This document shows, piece by piece, positions 7,897-27,146 of a DNA stretch of 64,000 bases. The position numbers and the translations under genes are program-made. Location: assembly GCA_910576125.1 (NCBI GenBank), contig CAJTHM010000016.1, positions 62,001-126,000 of the forward strand, read 5' to 3'. The number at the start of each line of letters is the position of its first letter. Position 1 is the first letter of the stretch. Under the pieces are notes generated by a model that saw only the letters and a program-made list of their open reading frames with translations, had not been told where the DNA came from and did not search any database. This stretch comes from Lachnospiraceae bacterium (GTDB taxonomy: Bacteria; Bacillota; Clostridia; Lachnospirales; Lachnospiraceae).

Positions 7897-9195
7897 CTAC
7901 AGCTTTAAGCTGTTTTTATCCAGCAATCCCCTGTTTACGAGGGATTGAAGGGATTTTAAAATGCCGAATTTCGCATGCTGCCAGGTCAGGCCGCCCTGAA
8001 AATACACAGCATATGGCGGCTTGATGGGCGCATCCGCGGAGAGCTCTATGGAAGATCCGGAGACGAACGCCCCTGCCGCCATGATGACCTGGGAATCATA
8101 TCCCGGCATATCCCACCCTTCCGGCGTCACATGGCTGTCCACCGGCGCTGCCGCCTGGATGCCCTGGCAGAATGCGATGACAGCTTCCGGTGTGCCGAAA
8201 GTCACTGCCTGGATGATGTCATGCCTGCTCTCGCTGCCGTCCGGTACCACGGCATAGCCTAAGCCTTCATACAGGTTCGCCGCGAAAATCGCGCCTTTTA
8301 AGGCGGATGCCGTCACTGTAGGAGCCAGGAACAGTCCCTGATAGAAGTCTTTCAGAATCCCCAGTGAGGCTCCTACCTCCTTGCCCAGCCCGGGAGAGGT
8401 GAGCCGGTAAGCCGCGTTCTCCACGCACGCTTTCCTACCGGCGATGTATCCCCCGATAGGCGCAAGGCCGCCCCCGGGATTCTTGATGAGGGAGCCTACC
8501 ACCATGTCTGCCCCCACGTCGCCGGGCTCTGCTGTCTCCACGAATTCCCCGTAGCAGTTGTCCACCATGCAGATCAGGTCAGGCTTGATGCCCTTGACGA
8601 AAGCAATCAGCTCCCCGATCTGCCCCACCGAAAAGGTAGGGCGGGTCTGATAGCCTTTGGAACGCTGAATGGTGACCAGGCGGGTGCGCTCTCCAATGGC
8701 CGCCCGGATGGCATCATAATCAAAGCTGCCATCCGCAAGCAGATCCACCTGTCTGTAACTGATTCCGTATTCTGCCAGGGAGCCTTTGGAGGGGCGGATG
8801 CCGATGACTTCCTCCAATGTATCATAGGGCTTCCCCACCGGGGAGAGCAGCTCGTCCCCAGGGCGCAGGTTGCTCATCAGCGCCAGGGCCAGGGCGTGGG
8901 TGCCGCAGGTAATCTGGGGGCGGACCAGCGCGTCCTCCGTATGGAATATCTTCGCGTAGACCGCCTCCAGCGTGTCCCTGCCCAGGTCGTTGTAGCCGTA
9001 GCCGGTGGTGCCCAGGAGACAGGCTTCGCTGACCTGGCATTCCTGCATGGCGTTTATGACTTTCAGTTGATTGTATTCCGTGATTTCGTCTATCTGCTGG
9101 AACCGGTCGGCCAGCTTCTTGAGGATAGCTTCACCGTATGCGTAGATTTCGCTGTCGATGCCCATTTGGGCGTATATGTTCTGTATTTCTTCCAT
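7897..9195 (-). CDS. Methionine gamma-lyase-like PLP enzyme (aluminium-resistance family)
   Basis: The 432-residue fold-type I PLP protein belongs to the Met_gamma_lyase/aluminium-resistance family (PF06838). Visible features are RPQITCGTHALALAL, the QRSKGYQTRPTF segment, MVDNCYGEFVE (the aspartate that contacts the PLP ring nitrogen) and the Schiff-base region SLIKNPGGGLAPIGGY. The physiological substrate of this family is uncertain. It is usually found near miaA and mutL in Clostridia, as here. The ATG at 9195 has no close ribosome site. An AAGGAGGG lies 27 bases upstream, separated by a small stem (GCTGC/GCAGC), so translation may depend on that hairpin bringing the site closer. Confidence 0.88.
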   Translation of the reverse strand: MEEIQNIYAQMGIDSEIYAYGEAILKKLADRFQQIDEITEYNQLKVINAMQECQVSEACLLGTTGYGYNDLGRDTLEAVYAKIFHTEDALVRPQITCGTHALALALMSNLRPGDELLSPVGKPYDTLEEVIGIRPSKGSLAEYGISYRQVDLLADGSFDYDAIRAAIGERTRLVTIQRSKGYQTRPTFSVGQIGELIAFVKGIKPDLICMVDNCYGEFVETAEPGDVGADMVVGSLIKNPGGGLAPIGGYIAGRKACVENAAYRLTSPGLGKEVGASLGILKDFYQGLFLAPTVTASALKGAIFAANLYEGLGYAVVPDGSESRHDIIQAVTFGTPEAVIAFCQGIQAAAPVDSHVTPEGWDMPGYDSQVIMAAGAFVSGSSIELSADAPIKPPYAVYFQGGLTWQHAKFGILKSLQSLVNRGLLDKNSLKL

Positions 9196-14383: not shown

Positions 14384-16108
14384 TCACTTTTGAAGCAATA
14401 CTCTGCATCTTTTTCTGTTGCAGGCAATACCGTATCTCAGGATGGTCTCCAGGCCGTCCTGGCGCAGCTTTTCTTCATAACCTGTTATTTCTATCTGCCG
14501 CAGGGCTTCCCTACAGCCCTTTTCTAAGGCTTCATATTGCTTCTTTTCTTTGTTGTCCGGGTATTTTACTTCTATCACGATGCCGATGCCTTTTTCTTCG
14601 ATTTCCACAAGAATATCGCTGTAACCGTCGCCTGATTCGGCATTGGAGCGGATATACCAGTCTTCCCGGTGGCTCAAAAGTCCCAGGAGGATGCCATGGT
14701 AAAAATTTTCTTTCTTGCTTTTGCGCACATTCGTATCCCGTATACTGATTGTTCTGGAGAGATAGGCGTTGAACCGGCTTTCCACCGCTTCAGCATCTCC
14801 GTTTGCGAATGCGTCACAGAATGCATCCAACGCAGGTGTATCCCTTCGGGCTTCCTGCTGAAACCATTCCAAAATCTGGTCAACGAAAATTTTCCGTATC
14901 TCACGGTTCGGTATGGCCAGATGATAAATTTCACCGTCCTCGCTGCCCCGCTGTGTCAGGTAGCCCGTGGTAAAGAGGATGCTCCAGAGATTGTCGATGG
15001 AGGCGTAGAGGTCCCTGTATGTCAGTTCCTGGTTGATTTTTTTCGGAATGGATTCTCCGTCAATCAGCCGCTCCAGCTCCTTTCTGGTACCTGCCTTAGC
15101 CAGGTTGATGAAATTTCGGATGATATCATTTCCGCTGGTATTAATCCAGAACGGCTTCGGAGATGCGTTCGAATCCAGTCGCAGCGAATCAATATAATTT
15201 ATCACATCCCATGGACAATAGACGTCGGCATTGCCGAAACGGTATCCGTCATACCACTCTTTCATCTGATTGAATTTATCACCACATCCGTAATACTCTG
15301 CCATGGCCTGGACTTCACTGTCGGTAAAGCCAAACCTCTCACCAGACTGCAGAGTCGTTATCGAAAGAACCTTCAGATTATTCAATCCAGTAAAAATGCT
15401 TTCCTTAGAGATGCGTAGGCAGCCTGTCAGCACGGCAAATGCCAGGCTGTGGTTGCCCTTCAATGCCTGGCTGAAAAGACTGCGAATCAGACCCACCATC
15501 TGGTCATAATAGTCGAAATATCGTGTCTTATCCAGCGGCACATCATATTCGTCGATTAGAAGAATCGCTTTCTGCCCATAATGCTTATGCAGAAGCCCAC
15601 AAAGAGTCAGTAAGCTGGAAACAAGCAATTCCTGAGGCATGTCAAACCATTTTTGACCAGAGAAGTCAATCGAGACCAGCTTCTCATAGGAAGCTTTTTC
15701 CCGGGCAGTAAGCGCATCGCTGTCCAGCAGGAACTGAAAGCGCATGGCTTCCCTCCCAATAGCGGAACGAAGCATTCCCAGGGCAGTATCGTAATCACTG
15801 CCGTCTACATCCTTCAGGGTGACGGAGATGACAGGGTACTTTCCCATATGCTCCCTGCAAAGCTGGAGCTCTTCCCTGATGGCGAGTCCCTCAAAAAGCT
15901 GCGGCTCACAGCCATATTCAAAAAAATATTTTAGCATATTCATGTTCAGGGATTTGCCGAACCTTCTGGGGCGCGTAAACAGGTTTATATTTCCCGAACC
16001 CTCCATGAGATCTCTTATCAGGGCTGTCTTATCTACATAGTAAAAACCGTTTCTGCGGATATCTTCAAAATTCTCAATGCCGATGGGCAGTCTGGCTCTT
16101 GTGTTCAC
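14384..16108 (-). CDS. AAA-ATPase-like protein with C-terminal PD-(D/E)XK nuclease-like domain
   Basis: The 574-residue protein begins with the hallmark of the AAA-ATPase_like family (PF09820): RLPIGIENFEDIRRNGFYYV, then DKT, a modified P-loop LFTRPRRFGKSLNM (about 43-56) and a Walker B-like LLIDEYDVPLD. The C-terminal part has GYSDILVEI, then IVIEVKY, the D...ExK pattern of the PD-(D/E)XK_9 nuclease domain (DUF1703). The family is often multicopy in Bacteroidetes and Clostridia and its role is unknown; a mobile or defence-related role has been suggested for related nucleases but is not shown. The start is GTG at 16108 after AAAGGAG. It lies between mutL and mutS with no partner gene. Confidence 0.85.
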   Translation of the reverse strand: MNTRARLPIGIENFEDIRRNGFYYVDKTALIRDLMEGSGNINLFTRPRRFGKSLNMNMLKYFFEYGCEPQLFEGLAIREELQLCREHMGKYPVISVTLKDVDGSDYDTALGMLRSAIGREAMRFQFLLDSDALTAREKASYEKLVSIDFSGQKWFDMPQELLVSSLLTLCGLLHKHYGQKAILLIDEYDVPLDKTRYFDYYDQMVGLIRSLFSQALKGNHSLAFAVLTGCLRISKESIFTGLNNLKVLSITTLQSGERFGFTDSEVQAMAEYYGCGDKFNQMKEWYDGYRFGNADVYCPWDVINYIDSLRLDSNASPKPFWINTSGNDIIRNFINLAKAGTRKELERLIDGESIPKKINQELTYRDLYASIDNLWSILFTTGYLTQRGSEDGEIYHLAIPNREIRKIFVDQILEWFQQEARRDTPALDAFCDAFANGDAEAVESRFNAYLSRTISIRDTNVRKSKKENFYHGILLGLLSHREDWYIRSNAESGDGYSDILVEIEEKGIGIVIEVKYPDNKEKKQYEALEKGCREALRQIEITGYEEKLRQDGLETILRYGIACNRKRCRVLLQK

Positions 16109-19027: not shown

Positions 19028-21802
19028 TTATTGTGTTTCGGCATTTTCCATAGGTGGAAGCGTAACCTCATCCTCTGATATCAGCTTCCAGTTGTTTACA
19101 TCCCGCATATCATCATGTATCGAATACCATGCGGATGGATGGAATGTATTGCCGTTGTTCTCCTCTATACTCCAGTCTTTCGATGAAATGACATACTGAT
19201 CGTGGGCGCTCTTTTCAGAAGAGTCTATCTCCTTCCCTGTAAAAGGATTTACCGGATTCTCGATGATTCCCTCCATGGCCAGCGTTGGGACATCCCCATT
19301 TGTCATAAACTCTTCCGATATCGAAAACTCCCTGCCGTCAAAGTCCTTGACCAGCAGCAGCGGATAAAAGGAGACGATATCTCTTTCTCCAAGCCGTGCC
19401 TCGTCTCCGTCAAACAGAACACTTCTTCCATGATCCGCCACCAGAATGATTCTTGTGTTATCATAGACATCATTCTCACGCATATAGTCAAACCATTTTC
19501 CCAATTGAATCATGGCAGCCATATTTGTCTGATAATACATCGCATGTACGCCTGTCGTCATCGGCAGCGTCTGTCCGTTTACTGTATACCTGTCCTGATG
19601 CTCGCGCTCATATTCCGTATTATCCACTGTTATGGCAGGTAAATACTCCGGTTCCTGTAACATCATAGGGTCATGGGTCAATCCATTCACCATCATTAAG
19701 AAGGTATCTATATCATCGTCTACAACATCGGTAATTTCCGGATATGCAGATAACTCATTATAGCATTCCATGAAAGCCTCCCGCAGCCCGTAAGAGGTAT
19801 ACATACCATCGGTTGTCTGTTGTAAATAAACGGTCTTCTGCGCATCTTCCTCCTGATTATATCTGCCGTAATCATATATGGTTTCCTGGAGACAAAGCGG
19901 AGCCGTCTTCATAATCCCATAACAGAAAAAGTTTCTCTTGTCATCCTGTATCCATAGGTCTTTTATGGAATCATCCTGAAATTTCCCGCTCAGAACATAG
20001 TGCTCTATTTCAGGATAATCATCATAAATCGAAAAATCCGGAATCCACTGATAACCTGCATAAGGCGGATCGCAGACCATCACCTGATAGTCGTTTTGAT
20101 CGAACAGCACCGGCATTACTTTCAATGCTTCATTCTGCTTTTCGGCCAATGGCTCTTCATCTCTTTTATTCATCTCTACCGGAGTATATTCATATCCTCC
20201 AAAAAGAGCCGGCGAACCAAAATTCGTATGTGCGCCAAACGACACAGTGTTGGCATAGTAGGTGAAGCCTTCAAACTGTTCCTTCAGTTCCGGTTTTTCT
20301 TCAAACAGATATGGAATGTATTCACCTATCGCCTGGTCCAACATGAGCACTATGACATTTTTCCCTGTTTTGCTCAATGTAAATCTGGGGATTGCCCTAT
20401 AGTTATCCAAATCCCTGCTTTTTAAACTGCTCACCGCATCATGGATTCCAGCCACATTGACAGACACCATGCAGATAAGAGACAAAACTCCTATGACCAG
20501 CACTTCCGAAACCAGCTTTTCTCTGTAACGGTATACTGCGTAAAATACCAGTATCACCGCAATGACTGCCAGCGCGTTCCATAACTGGCTTTCCCCCCTG
20601 AATCCTAACTGATTTTCATATTGCAGGCTTCTCGTGAGCAGCCCCAGATCTTTGCCAAAGAACATATAGTTCACTGTAAATACACCCGAAAGAATCCACA
20701 CAGCCCTGTCAAAATATACTCTCACGGAAGGTTTCGCAAGAAAATAGAACACGCCTGCCCAGATTACAAATATCCCGAACGCAAAGCAAAAGGAACTGAC
20801 AATGAACCATGACGGATGATAGAAATTCGTGATAACCACGAACTCCAGCGGTGAAGTTTTAATGACGGAAGACGGAATCAGAGCTCCCGTTAAAATAGAC
20901 AAAAATACTCCCCCCGCGAAAAAAAGAGTTCTATTTCCCGTTTTCAGCGCCTCCCTGCGCTTTACCCTGCTTTTTACGATTCCGAAAATGAGGGGCATCT
21001 GTAATAATATGGCACATGCCGTAAAAAATGCCACTTTCCGAAAAGTTGGGGTCGGATACAGGAAAAGTCCATAGATTTCCATCAGAAAACCACTGACTGA
21101 AAAGACCGCGTTCAATATTTTCCGTGGATTTTTCAGCTTGTAGAAACAGGTCTTCACCAGCGAGAACACATTATTCAGCGTCCAGTAAAAGACCAGTCCC
21201 GCCGGAGAGGCATATAAAAACACCAGAAAAAACAGCGCCATGGCATAGAGCTGTATCTTTGACTTTAACGGGCTTCCTTTTGTGAAAATGACACAGGATA
21301 CCAGATTTACAATCGTCATGATAATCGGCAGGAGATTCACAGAGATTCCCGCGAGCTGCAGCATTCCGTCCGGCTTGCCAAGATCTGCGATCGGCCCAAA
21401 AGAAACACCTTTCAATAGCAAAAGACCGGAGAGGAACCGGTACGCCGCAATAAAGAAAGGAATCTGTAAAAACAGGGAAACCGCACTTCGCAGGACATAG
21501 ACAGGCCTGTAATGATTCTGCCTGTAATAGGTCTGCAGCATCATTATCCGTTCATCGCCGCTGAACGTCTTTTTGATGTGCTCCACACCTCTTTGCAGCT
21601 TTTTTTCTATGAGGCGCTCTTCTTCCTGTATGGCATCAGCACGCATATACAATGGAAGTACAAGAAAATTCATAAAAAGGCTCAGCACAATAATCGATAA
21701 CCCCGGGTTATCGATTATTTTATAGGCCAGCATATAAATAATCTCAAAAATGAGCTCAAGCGATTTCAGCAATACTGTATCTAAAATTTCCACAAAAGAC
21801 AT
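19028..21802 (-). CDS. YidC/Oxa1-like membrane domain fused to LtaS-like sulfatase/phosphotransferase domain
   Basis: This 924-residue protein combines two families not normally joined. Residues about 1-225 read as YidC/Oxa1: a first membrane helix ending LPLYMRADAIQ, a long charged coiled hairpin (55-95), QIPFFIAAYRFLSG, LLPIIMTIVNLVSCVIF and the closing YASPAGLVFYWTLNNVFSLVK. Residues about 230-450 hold further membrane segments. From about 480 an alkaline-phosphatase-superfamily domain follows: NVIVLMLDQ (D489, candidate metal ligand), HTNFGSPALFGG (T526/S530, candidate nucleophile), and ILVADHGRS (D790/H791, second metal site). It overlaps no neighbour, starts two bases after the glycerophosphotransferase-like gene stop behind AAAGGGGGC, and ends the operon. 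By analogy with LtaS it may act on polyol-phosphate or phosphocholine substrates outside the membrane; that is inference. Confidence 0.8.
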   Translation of the reverse strand: MSFVEILDTVLLKSLELIFEIIYMLAYKIIDNPGLSIIVLSLFMNFLVLPLYMRADAIQEEERLIEKKLQRGVEHIKKTFSGDERIMMLQTYYRQNHYRPVYVLRSAVSLFLQIPFFIAAYRFLSGLLLLKGVSFGPIADLGKPDGMLQLAGISVNLLPIIMTIVNLVSCVIFTKGSPLKSKIQLYAMALFFLVFLYASPAGLVFYWTLNNVFSLVKTCFYKLKNPRKILNAVFSVSGFLMEIYGLFLYPTPTFRKVAFFTACAILLQMPLIFGIVKSRVKRREALKTGNRTLFFAGGVFLSILTGALIPSSVIKTSPLEFVVITNFYHPSWFIVSSFCFAFGIFVIWAGVFYFLAKPSVRVYFDRAVWILSGVFTVNYMFFGKDLGLLTRSLQYENQLGFRGESQLWNALAVIAVILVFYAVYRYREKLVSEVLVIGVLSLICMVSVNVAGIHDAVSSLKSRDLDNYRAIPRFTLSKTGKNVIVLMLDQAIGEYIPYLFEEKPELKEQFEGFTYYANTVSFGAHTNFGSPALFGGYEYTPVEMNKRDEEPLAEKQNEALKVMPVLFDQNDYQVMVCDPPYAGYQWIPDFSIYDDYPEIEHYVLSGKFQDDSIKDLWIQDDKRNFFCYGIMKTAPLCLQETIYDYGRYNQEEDAQKTVYLQQTTDGMYTSYGLREAFMECYNELSAYPEITDVVDDDIDTFLMMVNGLTHDPMMLQEPEYLPAITVDNTEYEREHQDRYTVNGQTLPMTTGVHAMYYQTNMAAMIQLGKWFDYMRENDVYDNTRIILVADHGRSVLFDGDEARLGERDIVSFYPLLLVKDFDGREFSISEEFMTNGDVPTLAMEGIIENPVNPFTGKEIDSSEKSAHDQYVISSKDWSIEENNGNTFHPSAWYSIHDDMRDVNNWKLISEDEVTLPPMENAETQ

Positions 21803-21803
21803 G

Positions 21804-23051
21804 TCAAGCCCCCTTTTTATCCTGTGTCAGCTCATCATACTTATTCAGCAGATATTCCACCGCGCGCTCTGTCCCTTCTCCCTTGTGCTCCCAGGTTTCC
21901 TCTCTGGCTTCTCTGCGTCCCTGCGCATACTTCGGATCCTGAATGCATTCATCGATCATTGCCTTTAAAGTATCCAGATTTTCCATTGTCAGCTTCTGGC
22001 CGATGCGGGGCAGAGCCGTAAATGTCCAGTACGGCGTTTCCAGCCACCATGCGTCATAAGGGCTGTTGTCAAACTCCGTATCCGCGTAAATGACAGGCTT
22101 GTCATATACAAGGGCAAAATCAAAAATAATGCCGGAAAAATCGGATATTAAAATATCGGCACGTTTCAAAACCTCAAAGTTATCATTGTCCCGATTCCAC
22201 TCTAGCTGGTCTGATGCAGGATATTCCTGCATAATCTTCTCGATTGTCTCTTTTTCGGAAGTAAAGGACTGCGGATGCGGGCGGACGATAATATGATATC
22301 CTGTTTTTATAAGCACTTCTATTATCTTTCCTTCATATTTTTGAAAGATTGAACTCTTTCCCCAGGACGGCGCCAGCAGGACGACATGTCCCTCTTTCCC
22401 CTCTTTCCGCTCTGCCGCCTGCAGTCTCTTGGCCATTTCATCCATATAGGGAATCCCTATCTTTATCAGGTCTTTTTGGGGAAGCCCCCTGATTTTTTCA
22501 AGGTCTCTTACTTCCTGCACCTGATACTCCCCTGAAAGCATCACAGCATCAAAATAATCCACGCCAAACATCCTGTATCCCGAGATATCATTTGCCGCAT
22601 GCTGCATGTGCACATAATACTGTACGTTTTTGGAGCGTTTCCACTGGTAAACATCCAGTCCCGGCGTCGTTGAAAGGACAATTCCGGCATTCAGAAAATT
22701 CATCCTTGCAAACGCTCTGTTATTTTTGCCGATAAACTCTCCTTTTATATGTTCATAGGGATTCTGAAGCGCGGGATCGTCGGGGGATGCCGTCATATAG
22801 ACCATGTCGACCCCCCTTCTGTCAAATTCCCGGCAGATTGGCTCAAATACGCTCCAATACCTCTTATCGTCCGAAAAAATAACGAACGGCAGTTTATCAG
22901 TATTTGTCTCTACCTTCTTACCTCCGCTCAGCAGAAAGCGCAGCTTTACGGCCCAGTTTTTCAGCAGATAGCTCAATGTCCCGATAACGCCGATCAGGAT
23001 TGCAAAAAGCATGCTTCCCGTCCCTGGATCGATATACAACAATATAATCAT
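21804..23051 (-). CDS. CDP-glycerol glycerophosphotransferase-like protein (TagF/TagB family)
   Basis: The 415-residue protein has an N-terminal hydrophobic segment that starts IILLYIDPGTGSMLFAI, seen on many polysaccharide-locus proteins, followed by the Glyphos_transf domain. Diagnostic pieces are VLLAPSWGKSSIF, IIVRPHPQSF and DILISDFSGIIFDFALVYDKP, which correspond to the CDP-alcohol donor site of TagB/TagF enzymes. These transfer glycerol phosphate or related alditol phosphates to teichoic acid precursors at the cytoplasmic face. ATG 23051 follows GGGGGAAGGG; the frame extends to 23123 without support. It lies 82 bases after the BCCT gene and immediately before the YidC-sulfatase gene. 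The actual acceptor and whether the donor is CDP-glycerol or CDP-choline cannot be told. Confidence 0.82.
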   Translation of the reverse strand: MIILLYIDPGTGSMLFAILIGVIGTLSYLLKNWAVKLRFLLSGGKKVETNTDKLPFVIFSDDKRYWSVFEPICREFDRRGVDMVYMTASPDDPALQNPYEHIKGEFIGKNNRAFARMNFLNAGIVLSTTPGLDVYQWKRSKNVQYYVHMQHAANDISGYRMFGVDYFDAVMLSGEYQVQEVRDLEKIRGLPQKDLIKIGIPYMDEMAKRLQAAERKEGKEGHVVLLAPSWGKSSIFQKYEGKIIEVLIKTGYHIIVRPHPQSFTSEKETIEKIMQEYPASDQLEWNRDNDNFEVLKRADILISDFSGIIFDFALVYDKPVIYADTEFDNSPYDAWWLETPYWTFTALPRIGQKLTMENLDTLKAMIDECIQDPKYAQGRREAREETWEHKGEGTERAVEYLLNKYDELTQDKKGA

Positions 23052-23133
23052 TTTCTTTGTCCCTTCCCCCTGCTTTTCCGTACTGCAATTACATATTTTA
23101 CAACTATCCCGCCAAAACCGCAATTATTTTATT

Positions 23134-24657
23134 TTACCCGACATATTTTTTCAGATCTTTCATAAAGCTCAGCACAATCAACACGATGACCATTCCTATC
23201 GGGAATGCCGCTATAATGCTGACTGACTGCAGATTGTTCATGGAACTGTCCGAAAAGACCAGCGCAATCGGCAGCAGAATCAGCAGGATACACCACATCA
23301 GTTTTATCAGTTTGTGGGGCTCCTCGCTCTCCCCAAGTTTATGATAACTGTAACAGGAGCCTATCAGAGCAATGGAGTCGAAGGATGTGGCATAGAACGC
23401 TATCATGGTGATCAGCATCAGTACCAGTACGAATGATGCACAGGGCAGTGTGCGAATCATCTCTATAATAATATCATAGAGATCTCCGTCCCGCCCATAT
23501 ATTGTAAGAAAATCCGCGCCTCCCAATACCTGTTTCCCTAGAGAATAATTTCCCAGCACAATAAAACTGATAATCGTGGAACCTGTCCCGAACAGATAAC
23601 CGCCGAAAATGACCTGGCGTATAGTCCTTCCCTTTGAAATGCTCCCGATGAAAAACGGAGCCGCCACACACCATACCATCCAATATGCCCAGTAAAAAAT
23701 CGTCCAGTTCTGCGGAAATTCTGTCGTTCGCGCAGGATCCGTAAACGTTGCCAGTTCAAGAAAATTCTGCAGCATTCTTCCCAGCGCGGAAAATCCCGTT
23801 TCTATAATATATCTTGTTTCTCCCCCGAACAGCAATACAAAGAGAACCAGTCCGTAAAACAGATAAATACACGACTTCGCCAGGAAGCTGATTCCTCCAA
23901 TGCCATGCAGCAACGCATAGGTATAGACCAGGCAGGTTATGAGCAGAATAACGATTGTAACTGCCCTGCGGCTCAGGTCCACGTGGAAAAGCTCATTTAT
24001 TATGCCTGCCATAAGCGGAGTCGCCAGCGAAAACGTTGTTGCGGTACCCGCCAGAAGCGCAAAAACCGCCAGCAGATCGATAACACGTCCTAAAATGCCA
24101 TCTGTCCGTCTGCCAAGAATCGGCCTGCAGGCCTCCGAATATTTCTGACGCCCCCTTTTCCGCACATGAAGCATAAAACCGAACGCTGCGGCCAATACCA
24201 GATAAAAGCCCCATGGAATGAAACTCCAGTGAAACAAAGGATACACGCTCGCCCAGTCCTGAATGCTTCCGCGCTGCGCGATATACGGATCGGATGCGTA
24301 CAAAATCCATTCCGAAAAGGAATAGAATAAGATATCTGCCGCCAGGCCAGCCGTGAACATCATGGAGCCCCATGCGAAAAAGGAAAGTTTGGGTTTTTCT
24401 CCTTTGTCCCCGAGCACCACATTTCCATAGCGCGAAGCCGCGATAAATAAGGAAAACAAAAATACGCCTAATCCCACTGCCAGATAATAAGTCCCCAATA
24501 CGTCTCCAAGCATAAACCTTATCTGTCCCAGAATCTCATTCGACTGGTCTGGGGCGAAGAAGAAAAATACACAAAGTACAACAATGATGATAAACGGCAC
24601 CAGGGTTATCATCCAGTCCACTCGTTTACCTTCACTGCTTTTTTTCGCTTTACTCAT
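23134..24657 (-). CDS. BCCT-family transporter, probable choline/betaine uptake
   Basis: The 507-residue protein has about 12 membrane helices and the BCCT signature region WTIFYWAYWMVWCVAAPFFIGSIS, with tryptophan-rich substrate-site segments. BCCT carriers take up choline, glycine betaine or carnitine with sodium or protons. I chose ATG 24657, eight bases into the end of the upstream cytidylyltransferase gene and behind GGGGAAAAGGG; 24681 is an alternative. Placement between a LicC-like and a TagF-like gene argues that it supplies choline (or a similar amino alcohol) to the locus, in the role that LicB plays in Haemophilus and Streptococcus. Confidence 0.88.
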   Translation of the reverse strand: MSKAKKSSEGKRVDWMITLVPFIIIVVLCVFFFFAPDQSNEILGQIRFMLGDVLGTYYLAVGLGVFLFSLFIAASRYGNVVLGDKGEKPKLSFFAWGSMMFTAGLAADILFYSFSEWILYASDPYIAQRGSIQDWASVYPLFHWSFIPWGFYLVLAAAFGFMLHVRKRGRQKYSEACRPILGRRTDGILGRVIDLLAVFALLAGTATTFSLATPLMAGIINELFHVDLSRRAVTIVILLITCLVYTYALLHGIGGISFLAKSCIYLFYGLVLFVLLFGGETRYIIETGFSALGRMLQNFLELATFTDPARTTEFPQNWTIFYWAYWMVWCVAAPFFIGSISKGRTIRQVIFGGYLFGTGSTIISFIVLGNYSLGKQVLGGADFLTIYGRDGDLYDIIIEMIRTLPCASFVLVLMLITMIAFYATSFDSIALIGSCYSYHKLGESEEPHKLIKLMWCILLILLPIALVFSDSSMNNLQSVSIIAAFPIGMVIVLIVLSFMKDLKKYVG

Positions 24658-25375
24658 CCCTTTTCCCCACAAGCTTCTCATAATCCCGATCCAGCGCCGC
24701 CAGTTCTTCCAGATTATCTATTTCCACGACGTCCCCTTTTTCCATTTCATAAATCCCCAGCCGGTATTGTTCCGGATAGCAAAACAGCGCGATATCATCC
24801 CAGTAAATCTGCGTATTCTTCTTTTCTTCAAATTCTGTTTCGAGATGCTTCCTCAGCTTTTTCCCATCCTCTTCCGTCCATCTTGAAATGCTGTAAAGCT
24901 GCCAGCCCTCTGCTCCTCCGGTCCTGCTGCAGCGCTTCACGATTCCGTTCTCCACCGTAAGCAGCCATTCTTTCGTCTGCCGTGCAGTCCATGTACAATT
25001 ATATCCTGAACGCTCAAAAGATTTTGACATTACCTCTTTGTTGTATATCATCTGATCCGCATCCAATATGATAGAATCCCCTATATACTCCCTTGCCATG
25101 TACAGCGACGAAATATTATTGCATCTGTCATAATAAGGATTTTCAATCAGCACAATGCCGGGATATTCCTTCTCCAGGCAGGAAAATCTCTCTTTCATAT
25201 ATCCCACTACCACATATATTTCATATATTCCATTGGCATGCAATGCCCTGATGCTTGTATCGATCATCCTGCTGCCGTTTACTTTAATCAGCGGCTTCGG
25301 TGTCTCCAAAGTGAGCGGCTGCATCCTGTTTCCCATACCTGCCGCCATAATAATCGCATTTTTAACCTCAGACAT
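24650..25375 (-). CDS. licC: LicC-like nucleotidyltransferase (probable phosphocholine cytidylyltransferase)
   Basis: The 241-residue protein belongs to the NTP_transferase family. It shows the nucleotide-binding loop IIMAAGMGNRMQPLT, the lysine in PKPLIKV and a metal-binding aspartate in SIILDADQM. Together with YNCTWTARQTKEWLL and YWDDIALF these resemble LicC, which makes CDP-choline from CTP and phosphocholine. Its ATG lies inside the last codons of the kinase-fusion gene (eight-base overlap), and its own end overlaps the BCCT gene, so the three are translationally coupled. CDP-ethanolamine or another amino-alcohol product remains possible. Confidence 0.8.
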   Translation of the reverse strand: MSEVKNAIIMAAGMGNRMQPLTLETPKPLIKVNGSRMIDTSIRALHANGIYEIYVVVGYMKERFSCLEKEYPGIVLIENPYYDRCNNISSLYMAREYIGDSIILDADQMIYNKEVMSKSFERSGYNCTWTARQTKEWLLTVENGIVKRCSRTGGAEGWQLYSISRWTEEDGKKLRKHLETEFEEKKNTQIYWDDIALFCYPEQYRLGIYEMEKGDVVEIDNLEELAALDRDYEKLVGKRDE

Positions 25376-27146
25376 ATTCTGAACTCTCCATTTTTTCTAA
25401 CTCTTTCCGGGCGATTCGATAATACTCTTTTGCATAACGATATTGGTACAGAGAATATTCTCCGAATTCTTCGCCAAGCTTTCGCTTATATTCGCACCAA
25501 TTGCTCCAAAGCAGGCCGCAGACGGCAATATAGCAATAAATTTTGATTCGGGTCATATCATCGCATTTTCCCGAAAAGTACAGATCTATCAAATGGTCAA
25601 TCCGCCCTCTGTCATAGAGAGCATAGATGCAGAACATGGCAATATCCACATGCGGATCCTGCATACCCGCATACTCCCAGTCTATTATCCTGATGTCCTC
25701 TTTCCCGTTTTCATCCATGCAGAACAGAAAATTATCAGGCACTGCATCGATATGGGCAAGGACTTTCTTTTCCGTATATTTTTCTGTAAAGGGCCTTAAT
25801 GACAGAACATTTCTTTTCGTTTCGGTATAGTCTTTATAGGAAGAGATTGTTTTCCCCCAGAGACTTTCATAAAAATCAATCTGTTCCCAGATATTGAATT
25901 CATGTGCTGCCTCAAGTCCCAGCTCGTGAAATTCCCGCAGCTTTTTCATGCATTTTCCAATGTCGCTCTCACTGTGGGGATTACAGGCTCTTGCTTCCTC
26001 TATATATTCCGTGATTTTGTATCCGTTTTCCGGATTGATATAGATAATCCTGTCACAGATATCCAGATTTTTTATCTTCTCGTAAATATTCGCTTCTTCT
26101 GTGCGGTTGATCAAGTAATCCGTCCCTTCCCCCGGTATGCGCATGATATATCTGTTTCCCGCGCATTGAAAAGAAAAGGAACGATTCGTCATTCCCTTTT
26201 TCAGAACAGCCATATCTGTTATTTCCTGTTCGCTGACTCCAAGGGCTTCGGCAGCCGCGGAAATGGTATCAGATTTCAAATGTTCCGAAGAACTGTCATA
26301 TTCCCGAAGCTGCTCATATGTATTAATCTCCAGAATACCGGAGTTTTCCACGATTCTTGGATAGACCATCATACCTTCATTTTGATACAGCGCTTCTTCC
26401 CAATAAGAATTATCATATTTTCTGTATCTGCAGAATTCTTCGATACGCTTCCTGAGCTCTGCCGCATCTTTCTCCAAAATATAGCTTATGCCCACCATGG
26501 CGTTTCCCGGCTGCGCTGTCCGGGTCTTTACCAGTTCCATTTTCCGGTTTACCCGGACATCGCTTTCTTCTGTCAGAAAATCGCTGATCATGTACCACGA
26601 ATATAGTTCCTTGCGTCTGAACGGATTCTCCGCACACCACAGATCGGCCGGAAGAATATAAGAATTAGATATATATTTTAAGGCCATTTTTAAAGAATGC
26701 AGATTATTCTTGGCCGTATATTCCGAATTGACAATCAGTTTGACTCCAAATTCATCAATCAAATATTCAAAGCTTTCTTTCATGAACCCAACAACTACAT
26801 ATATGTCGTAAACCCCTGCTGCCTGAAGCTGCCTGATCAGCCGCTCTATCAAACACTCTCCCCTGACCTCCAGCAAAGCTTTTGGAATGTCCATGTTAAT
26901 CGGCACCATCCTCATTCCAAAACCTGCCGCAAGAATGATTGCATTTCGGGGAGAACGGTTTTTGAATACATTTTTTGCCGCTTCCGTAAAGCGTTTTTCT
27001 TCATCCAAATATCCTTTGTCCGTCAGATTTTTGATACAGCGGTTGACAAATCCTAATGAATAACCTGTTTGTTCTGACAAAAAACGTTGGCTTACATAGC
27101 TCTCAGCTGACAGCGCAAGCATGATATCCAGTTCCTGTTTGTTCAT
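25368..27146 (-). CDS. HTH-nucleotidyltransferase-choline kinase (LicA-like) fusion
   Basis: The 592-residue protein has three parts. Residues 1-62 form a winged helix-turn-helix (ALSAESYVSQRFLSEQTGYS, then LGFVNRCIKNL). Residues 66-290 are a sugar/choline-type nucleotidyltransferase with IILAAGFGMRMVPIN and PKALLEV. Residues 310-592 are a choline/ethanolamine kinase-type domain with HIDAVPDNFLF (H465, D467, N472; Brenner motif) and IRIIDWEYAG (D489; the metal-binding DxD region). The kinase would phosphorylate choline as LicA does. Together with the separate LicC this gives the operon two nucleotidyltransferases. The gene is first in its operon behind a TTGACA promoter. The HTH suggests autoregulation, but fused HTH-NTase proteins in surface-glycan loci are poorly characterised. 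Confidence 0.82.
   Translation of the reverse strand: MNKQELDIMLALSAESYVSQRFLSEQTGYSLGFVNRCIKNLTDKGYLDEEKRFTEAAKNVFKNRSPRNAIILAAGFGMRMVPINMDIPKALLEVRGECLIERLIRQLQAAGVYDIYVVVGFMKESFEYLIDEFGVKLIVNSEYTAKNNLHSLKMALKYISNSYILPADLWCAENPFRRKELYSWYMISDFLTEESDVRVNRKMELVKTRTAQPGNAMVGISYILEKDAAELRKRIEEFCRYRKYDNSYWEEALYQNEGMMVYPRIVENSGILEINTYEQLREYDSSSEHLKSDTISAAAEALGVSEQEITDMAVLKKGMTNRSFSFQCAGNRYIMRIPGEGTDYLINRTEEANIYEKIKNLDICDRIIYINPENGYKITEYIEEARACNPHSESDIGKCMKKLREFHELGLEAAHEFNIWEQIDFYESLWGKTISSYKDYTETKRNVLSLRPFTEKYTEKKVLAHIDAVPDNFLFCMDENGKEDIRIIDWEYAGMQDPHVDIAMFCIYALYDRGRIDHLIDLYFSGKCDDMTRIKIYCYIAVCGLLWSNWCEYKRKLGEEFGEYSLYQYRYAKEYYRIARKELEKMESSEYV

Follow-up and report, generated by a model that had tools for sequence, protein, structure and literature searches.

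A YidC fold fused to an alkaline-phosphatase-superfamily domain

We analysed a stretch of 64,000 nucleotides from a Lachnospiraceae bacterium (GenBank assembly GCA_910576125.1, contig CAJTHM010000016.1, positions 62,001 to 126,000 of the forward strand), hereafter the window, in which positions are counted from its first letter. On its minus strand, at 19028..21802, lies a gene that joins a YidC fold to a transferase-like catalytic domain of the alkaline phosphatase (AP) superfamily, recognised from its open reading frame, Pfam matches, a predicted model and fold matches; we call proteins of this architecture type A fusions. The gene forms a single unbroken frame of 924 codons, and the plus strand of the same interval contains many stops. 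The encoded protein (924 residues) has the YidC fold at residues 1-225 (21128..21802, minus strand), about seven predicted membrane helices at residues 226-475 (20378..21127, minus) and the AP-superfamily domain at residues 476-924 (19031..20377, minus). An earlier note, made from the letters of this DNA alone, had proposed the two-domain architecture; to its account we add the minus strand and the seven or so membrane helices that also lie in the second half.

To define the family we used a scan with one genome per species, which gave 432 confirmed stretches, and kept the best 80, corresponding to 79 loci. Both parts of the fusion are encoded at all 79, with a frame of at least 890 residues in 73; the remaining six comprise four loci cut by contig ends, L073 with 873 residues and L098 with a broken frame. 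Because both parts are found at every locus, a frameshift or an assembly join of two separate genes, which the earlier note had raised against its own proposal, is excluded, and the fusion architecture is genuine. We aligned the window protein with 78 of the 85 locus proteins of 890-960 residues (alignment A1, 79 rows; omitted were L060, L072, L077, both L091 proteins, L100 and the second L103 protein), the VIA-align rows covering mostly the catalytic domain. An AlphaFold model of the full fusion built from the 79 aligned relatives reached a predicted local distance difference test score (pLDDT) of 87.2 and a predicted template modelling score of 0.81. By region, mean pairwise identity is highest in the YidC part (0.69), followed by the catalytic domain (0.52) and the middle (0.36). 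We found no description of a YidC-AP-superfamily fusion in literature searches of openly licensed papers. Annotation pipelines presumably label such proteins YidC/Oxa1 family insertase. The individual parts belong to known families; to our knowledge, their combination and the reciprocal fusions described below are new.

The YidC part matches PF02096 at residues 34-221 with 77.6 bits (cut-off 35) and narrowly misses TIGR03592 (80.8 against 84.3). Residues 1-222 of the model superpose on the solved YidC structures 6al2 (Z 18.6, root-mean-square deviation (rmsd) 3.1 A, 199 residues) and 3wo7 (Z 18.1, rmsd 2.9 A, 209 residues), and the five-helix fold with its cytoplasmic hairpin is present in the predicted model, so the YidC half proposed earlier holds up under structure prediction. 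Residues 179-221 are the most conserved of the stretches measured (mean pairwise identity 0.82). The protein is thus like the YidC/Oxa1/Alb3 insertases in fold and PF02096 score, and it differs from them in carrying a fused enzyme, in just missing TIGR03592, in having Asn in place of the groove Arg/Lys and in being an extra copy besides the housekeeping YidC: a separate, better-scoring YidC was found in each of 15 fusion genomes, the one in the window's genome adjoining a Jag-like gene.

By alignment to solved YidC, N45 (codon 21668-21670) corresponds to R366 of E. coli YidC and W207 to Y517. A positive residue in the hydrophilic groove of YidC has been described as strictly conserved (PMC8920935). 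At this position we found Asn in 86 of 87 type A proteins, and Lys in all 16 proteins with a residue there among the reciprocal, type B fusions (one gap). The housekeeping YidCs of the same family (n=19) have K in 5, N in 6, Y in 7 and V in 1, leaving 14 without Arg/Lys, and that of the window's own genome (L001, C22) has Asn; four rows from other families have K (2) or R (2). This comparison used 23 of 26 rows (L117, L118 and L187 were left out). The missing positive residue in these 14 housekeeping proteins contradicts the published general statement. It follows that the groove residue does not define YidC in this family and that N45 is uninformative on a loss of insertase activity, and we dropped that argument for such a loss.

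Downstream of the YidC fold, the model places about seven helices within residues 226-461, ahead of the catalytic domain, an assignment based on model helices, loop charges and an alignment to PbgA. The last five of them sit at the position of the PbgA/YejM membrane part; PbgA aligns over residues 289-920, but at an rmsd of 15.7, so that the likeness of the membrane parts is no more than suggestive. Lys/Arg counts in the loops between these helices, which were placed by hand from the model, fit a catalytic domain on the outside, so the domain is likely extracytoplasmic, in agreement with the earlier prediction.

Residues 478-921 of the model match AP-superfamily structures at Z of about 18-20, including phosphonate monoester hydrolases, choline sulfatase, YejM/PbgA, EptC and MCR-1, with the YejM, EptC, MCR-1 and EptA domains at Z 17.8-19.1; this supports the AP-superfamily core that had been read from the letters. 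The top Foldseek rows include MCR-1, LtaP, EptA and LtaS (E 2e-7 to 1e-6 for LtaP/LtaS). Profile searches, which the earlier note had recommended for each half, gave a clear result for the YidC half and not for this one: PF00884 matches residues 481-795 with 19.6 bits, short of its cut-off of 25, and LtaS gives a weak match (E 0.011) confined to the stretch around the DHG motif. Among four stand-alone transferase relatives scanned with PF00884, three pass (33.7, 48 and 28.8) and one has no match. A shared fold is no proof of function. The residues D489 (codon 20336-20338), T526 (20225-20227), H710 (19673-19675) and D790-H791 (19430-19435; all minus strand) are invariant in the 79 aligned proteins, and the same D/T/H/DH set is kept in 12 of 12 stand-alone transferase relatives. 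By the chemistry of LtaS and EptA, which we take to apply here, the conserved Asp and His residues would be metal ligands and the Thr the nucleophile. The candidates named earlier were T526, S530, D790 and H791; of these S530 varies among the aligned relatives, which leaves T526 as the candidate nucleophile. The protein thus has in common with LtaS, EptA/MCR and PbgA (YejM) membrane helices followed by an outward AP-superfamily domain, the Asp/His metal set and the place of the Thr nucleophile; it adds a YidC domain and two further helices, and differs in its PF00884 score below cut-off.

The operon and the neighbours of type A fusions

Directly upstream of the fusion, at 21804..23123 (minus strand, as are all genes of this operon), lies a gene for a TagF-like CDP-alcohol phosphotransferase (PF04464, 50.4 bits against a cut-off of 22.1) with a TagF fold. 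Its model matches TagF at Z 21.8-21.9 (3l7i: Z 21.8, rmsd 6.1, 348 residues), UDP-N-acetylglucosamine 2-epimerases, which have the same broad fold, match equally high, and PF04464 is matched by all 30 aligned relatives. The first 29 residues have pLDDT below 50 and about 24 of them are absent from most relatives; the TTG start therefore appears to be set too early, and the ATG at 23051 is probably the true start. The protein carries a membrane module with the motif YIDPGTGS (23013-23036, minus), a helix that opens 68 of 69 type A TagF-like proteins.

Three further genes precede the TagF-like gene: a transporter of the betaine/carnitine/choline family (BCCT; 23134..24681, minus; PF02028, 408 bits), a LicC-like nucleotidyltransferase (24650..25375, minus; PF12804/PF00483 over cut-off) and a triple fusion of a helix-turn-helix (HTH) domain, a LicC-like cytidylyltransferase and a LicA-like choline kinase (25368..27146, minus; Pfam and PDB matches). 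Read toward the fusion, the order is HTH-LicC-LicA, LicC-like, BCCT and TagF-like, with overlaps or short gaps, and a MutS gene follows downstream of the fusion on the same strand. The best PDB matches of the triple fusion are the choline kinase 4r77 and the CTP:phosphocholine cytidylyltransferase 1jyk, and its LicC part is 37% identical to the neighbouring LicC-like protein. The operon thus contains LicA- and LicC-like genes and a choline-type transporter, the set by which the Lic-1 pathway is recognised, and has in common with that pathway the transporter, the choline kinase and the CTP:phosphocholine cytidylyltransferase; it differs in having the TagF-like enzyme and the YidC-transferase in place of LicD. 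The BCCT substrate would be choline; the family also takes betaine and carnitine. No LicD was present among the scanned operon genes, and one lies elsewhere on the same contig (G000:C16:146638-147306). As a side observation, the winged helix-turn-helix of the triple fusion is joined directly to the choline activation enzymes, that is, as a built-in regulator.

The architecture is widespread in Clostridia. By their record titles, the 79 loci come from Lachnospiraceae, Oscillospiraceae, other Clostridia, Clostridium punense, Schwartzia and one metagenome bin labelled as an actinobacterium. The type A fusion was present in 15 of 299 genomes sampled evenly from the family, the window's own included (one further genome, G052, has a divergent form). 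Across the phylum it is rare, the full fusion being present in 3 of 398 sampled genomes, again with the window's own among them. More than one long copy occurs at 11 of the 79 loci. A tblastn search for carriage on plasmids returned 18 records, none with at least 80% query coverage, and the 8 matches listed cover the YidC part only.

The association with TagF and Lic genes, which the earlier note had suggested surveying, recurs across loci. A TagF-like gene lies directly upstream of the fusion at 62 of 79 loci and anywhere in the locus at 67, and six of the 12 loci without one are cut by contig ends. Using blastp (E 1e-5) up to 9 kb on each side, we found LicC/LicA-like genes at 39 of 79 loci, with a match of at least 80 bits in 33 and on the same strand in 35 of the 39. 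Transporters of four kinds accompany them (EamA, BCCT, PF02133 NCS1-type and ABC), and 19 of these 39 loci have an EamA-type cluster, whose identity was confirmed by Pfam for one member. At genome level, LicC/LicA relatives of at least 80 bits occur in 13 of 15 fusion genomes and 9 of 45 controls (Fisher p 7e-6, with a threshold picked after the scores were seen and a query from one of the 15 fusion genomes), and at E <= 1e-8 in 14 of 15 and 15 of 45, respectively.

Some loci may use other headgroups. The LicC-like enzyme is fused to a pyridoxal phosphate (PLP) domain of the threonine-phosphate decarboxylase/aminotransferase kind in L065 (5857-7701), L068 (1642-3468) and the type B locus L158 (4884-6686), and L077 and L083 carry genes of similar length and with similarity to these fusions. 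The L065 domain most resembles threonine-phosphate decarboxylase-like enzymes, and a different headgroup may therefore be in use at that locus; L054 has a gene of the ornithine-cyclodeaminase family (7980-8921) between TagF and the fusion. In the cited part of PMC4441256, the gene set for phosphorylated N-methyl-threonine on C. difficile flagellin includes phosphocholine cytidylyltransferase-like and glycerophosphotransferase-like genes, the role of the latter being unclear. At type A loci lacking Lic-like genes, the recurrent neighbours were Rce1-like proteins (6), a second PF04464 protein (3) and ABC ATPases (3), in a survey that scanned 64 of 108 listed proteins and covered the first 25 of 98 families, most of them seen once or twice. 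Over all 79 loci, an Rce1-like membrane protein of the CAAX protease family lies beside the type A pair at 9 (e.g. L048:7054-7767, plus strand).

Reciprocal fusions and shared modules

A complementary fusion, YidC-TagF (type B), was found in 15 of 299 family genomes, at 18 loci of which two are cut by contig ends. In genome G022, from the window's genus, a single chain matches PF02096 (107.6 bits) and PF04464 (43.2 bits) and directly follows a PF00884 gene; G022 carries a type A fusion as well. A separate transferase lies nearby at 10 of the 18 type B loci, and a LicC-like relative at 13, two of these with an identity of only 23-24%. In the type B protein the YidC domain occupies the end of the TagF part where type A has the YIDP helix, and 13 of 18 loci encode a short YIDP-motif protein, which in one case is fused to the front of the transferase. 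These small membrane proteins of about 85-93 residues with a YIDP[SA] motif (L122:6196-6462, plus; L158:8626-8886, plus; L164:8361-8642, minus) resemble the helix at the start of the type A TagF. Four modules (YIDP helix, TagF-like, YidC and AP-superfamily transferase) are thus shared among genes in at least three ways. Swaps of this kind classically mark proteins that work together, and we regard them as a strong argument that these proteins do so, probably as one machine delivering CMP-activated phosphocholine- or phosphonate-type groups to the surface.

Phosphonates are suggested by the neighbours of several fusions. A phosphoenolpyruvate (PEP) mutase, of the 2-aminoethylphosphonate (AEP) route, is encoded at 7 of 18 type B loci, and at L164 a transaminase, PEP mutase, phosphonopyruvate decarboxylase and LicC/PntC-like genes directly follow the fusion; the AEP transaminase, PEP mutase and phosphonopyruvate decarboxylase exceed their NCBIfam cut-offs. 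The LicC/PntC-like enzyme of L164 is nearer to solved LicC than to solved PntC, so AEP would be its presumptive substrate. The type A locus L070 of Schwartzia succinivorans, a Negativicute, has a phosphonate set (PEP mutase, phosphonopyruvate decarboxylase, AEP transaminase and LicC-like genes) that adjoins the fusion on the other strand; Negativicutes have an outer membrane. The type B loci thereby resemble the pnt phosphonate-tailoring clusters treated in the cited part of PMC6697681, through PEP mutase at 7 of 18 loci and the fuller set of L164. There, the final transfer is proposed for LicD-like proteins or glycosyltransferases; type B instead has the YidC-TagF fusion and an AP-superfamily enzyme at that place.

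For the origin of the YidC domains we built a tree from 23 of 87 type A proteins, 16 of 17 long type B proteins (from the 18 loci), 23 of 26 other rows, and L124 and L123. Type A (23 rows) and type B (16 rows) fall on separate long branches, and type B groups with the housekeeping YidC of the family. A single common clade of A and B was not rejected by the approximately unbiased test (p 0.13), so two separate recruitments are not established despite the split tree; YidC was possibly recruited twice.

A proposed route for surface headgroups and its alternatives

The data show the fusion itself, its two folds as modelled, catalytic residues without variation, an operon-like arrangement of the genes and the exchange of modules among relatives. 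The reading that we favour, with a probability of about 0.4, goes further: the fusion would be one half of a membrane machine that places small phosphorus-linked headgroups on the surface by way of a lipid intermediate moved by YidC. A machine decorating the surface with headgroups is its likely function, phosphocholine is the most likely headgroup at the window locus, and the bold element is the proposal that the YidC fold moves lipid. Choline would be imported through the BCCT transporter, phosphorylated and activated to CDP-choline by the LicA/LicC-like enzymes, and phosphocholine moved by the TagF-like enzyme onto a lipid acceptor at the inner face. The YidC module, with its groove open to lipid, would help the polar headgroup across the membrane. 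The outer AP-superfamily domain would then load the group on T526, with a metal held by D489, D790 and H791, and pass it to a surface glycan or lipid. Inferred in this scheme are that a lipid serves as intermediate, which way the transfer runs, that YidC helps lipid to cross, what the acceptor is and precisely which headgroup is used.

LtaS, EptA and similar AP-superfamily transferases take headgroups from lipids of the outer face. With CDP-choline made inside and transfer of this type outside, a membrane-crossing lipid would close the gap. The same logic of one protein coupling a lipid headgroup enzyme with lipid movement is seen, by analogy, in MprF, where a lysyl-phosphatidylglycerol synthase is fused to its own flippase. 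The cited part of PMC10491306 reports that E. coli YidC, Oxa1 and Get1 scramble lipids on reconstitution. The earlier note had offered a membrane scaffold or a lipid-handling groove, rather than an insertase, as the role of the YidC part: this scrambling in vitro, together with the swap of the YidC module between transferase and TagF, supports the groove, and the claim that the module is no insertase is unsupported. A wider version, in which the YidC fold is reused as a lipid-headgroup translocator in a shuffled, four-module decoration machine with phosphocholine and 2-aminoethylphosphonate versions, and with YidC possibly recruited twice, we put forward tentatively.

Several points weigh against the lipid-intermediate route. 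A glycan could be modified by the TagF-like enzyme directly, with no lipid in between. No Lic-like gene was found within up to 9 kb on each side at 40 of 79 type A loci, nor a separate transferase in the DNA around 8 of 18 type B loci. PF01473 choline-binding repeats show no enrichment, occurring in 4 of 15 fusion genomes (one of them with many copies) and 18 of 45 controls, and a pneumococcus-like use of phosphocholine with choline-binding proteins is unsupported on these counts. LicD is equally no more frequent in fusion genomes (10 of 15) than in controls (27 of 45), and was dropped as a marker; since it is common in fusion genomes, the window's included, CDP-choline may go to LicD instead. 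Three fusion genomes (G169, G211 and G298) have LicC/LicA relatives of at least 80 bits and no LicD match, a small subset noticed post hoc.

Among the alternatives, a YidC module that is a mere docking scaffold joining the TagF-like enzyme and the transferase is unlikely. Since type A joins it to the transferase and type B joins it to TagF, it can bridge both, and its charged hairpin is kept on the cytoplasmic side; the conservation that a scaffold leaves unaccounted for is that of the membrane core, at residues 179-221. We rate somewhat lower a working insertase or chaperone dedicated to the fused membrane domain, the TagF partner or the YIDP helix, with no transport of lipid. The complete YidC fold, hairpin included, is retained as the most conserved part, and the groove Asn, being shared with the housekeeping YidC of this genome, is compatible with insertase activity; the genome already has that separate YidC, however, and fusion to two different enzymes of one pathway would be odd for a general insertase.

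It is improbable that a polymer like lipoteichoic acid (LTA) or teichoic acid is the joint product of the TagF-like enzyme and the fusion, with the Lic genes only decorating it. PF04464 and the LtaS-like fold are indeed folds of teichoic acid enzymes, and at L123 a TagF/transferase pair lies beside a PF01467 cytidylyltransferase that could make CDP-glycerol. Where activation genes were found to accompany the pair, however, most resemble LicC/LicA or PntC (39 of 79 type A and 13 of 18 type B loci), and an LTA synthase does not depend on genes dedicated to CDP-choline or CMP-AEP. Very improbable is a choline-scavenging operon whose outer domain acts as a hydrolase, taking off phosphocholine or releasing choline from host phospholipids, which would suit the fold matches to phosphonate monoester hydrolases and choline sulfatase (Z of about 20) and the BCCT transporter but leaves the upstream TagF-like gene (62 of 79 loci), CDP-choline synthesis and the AEP genes of type B unexplained.

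The joining of the YidC fold to the transferase in some proteins and to its TagF partner in others suggests that this insertase fold was recruited for surface decoration. If the route through a lipid moved by YidC is correct, an insertase fold can serve in nature as a dedicated lipid mover, an idea that has so far been based on ordinary insertases, reconstituted or simulated (PMC10491306). A further route would be added to surface phosphocholine or phosphonates in a common gut family, with a TagF-like enzyme and an outer transferase replacing LicD, and the reciprocal fusions make the claim directly testable.

Two further observations concern the control genomes and the far side of the fusion gene. 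Six controls (G005, G013, G019, G090, G131 and G145) combine the strongest LicC-LicA relatives with 10 to 115 choline-binding repeats; most fusion genomes are unlike them, and two alternative uses of phosphocholine in the family are possible. Near the MutS gene, the window encodes an AAA-ATPase-like/PDDEXK_9 protein (PF09820, PF08011) at 14384-16108 on the minus strand.

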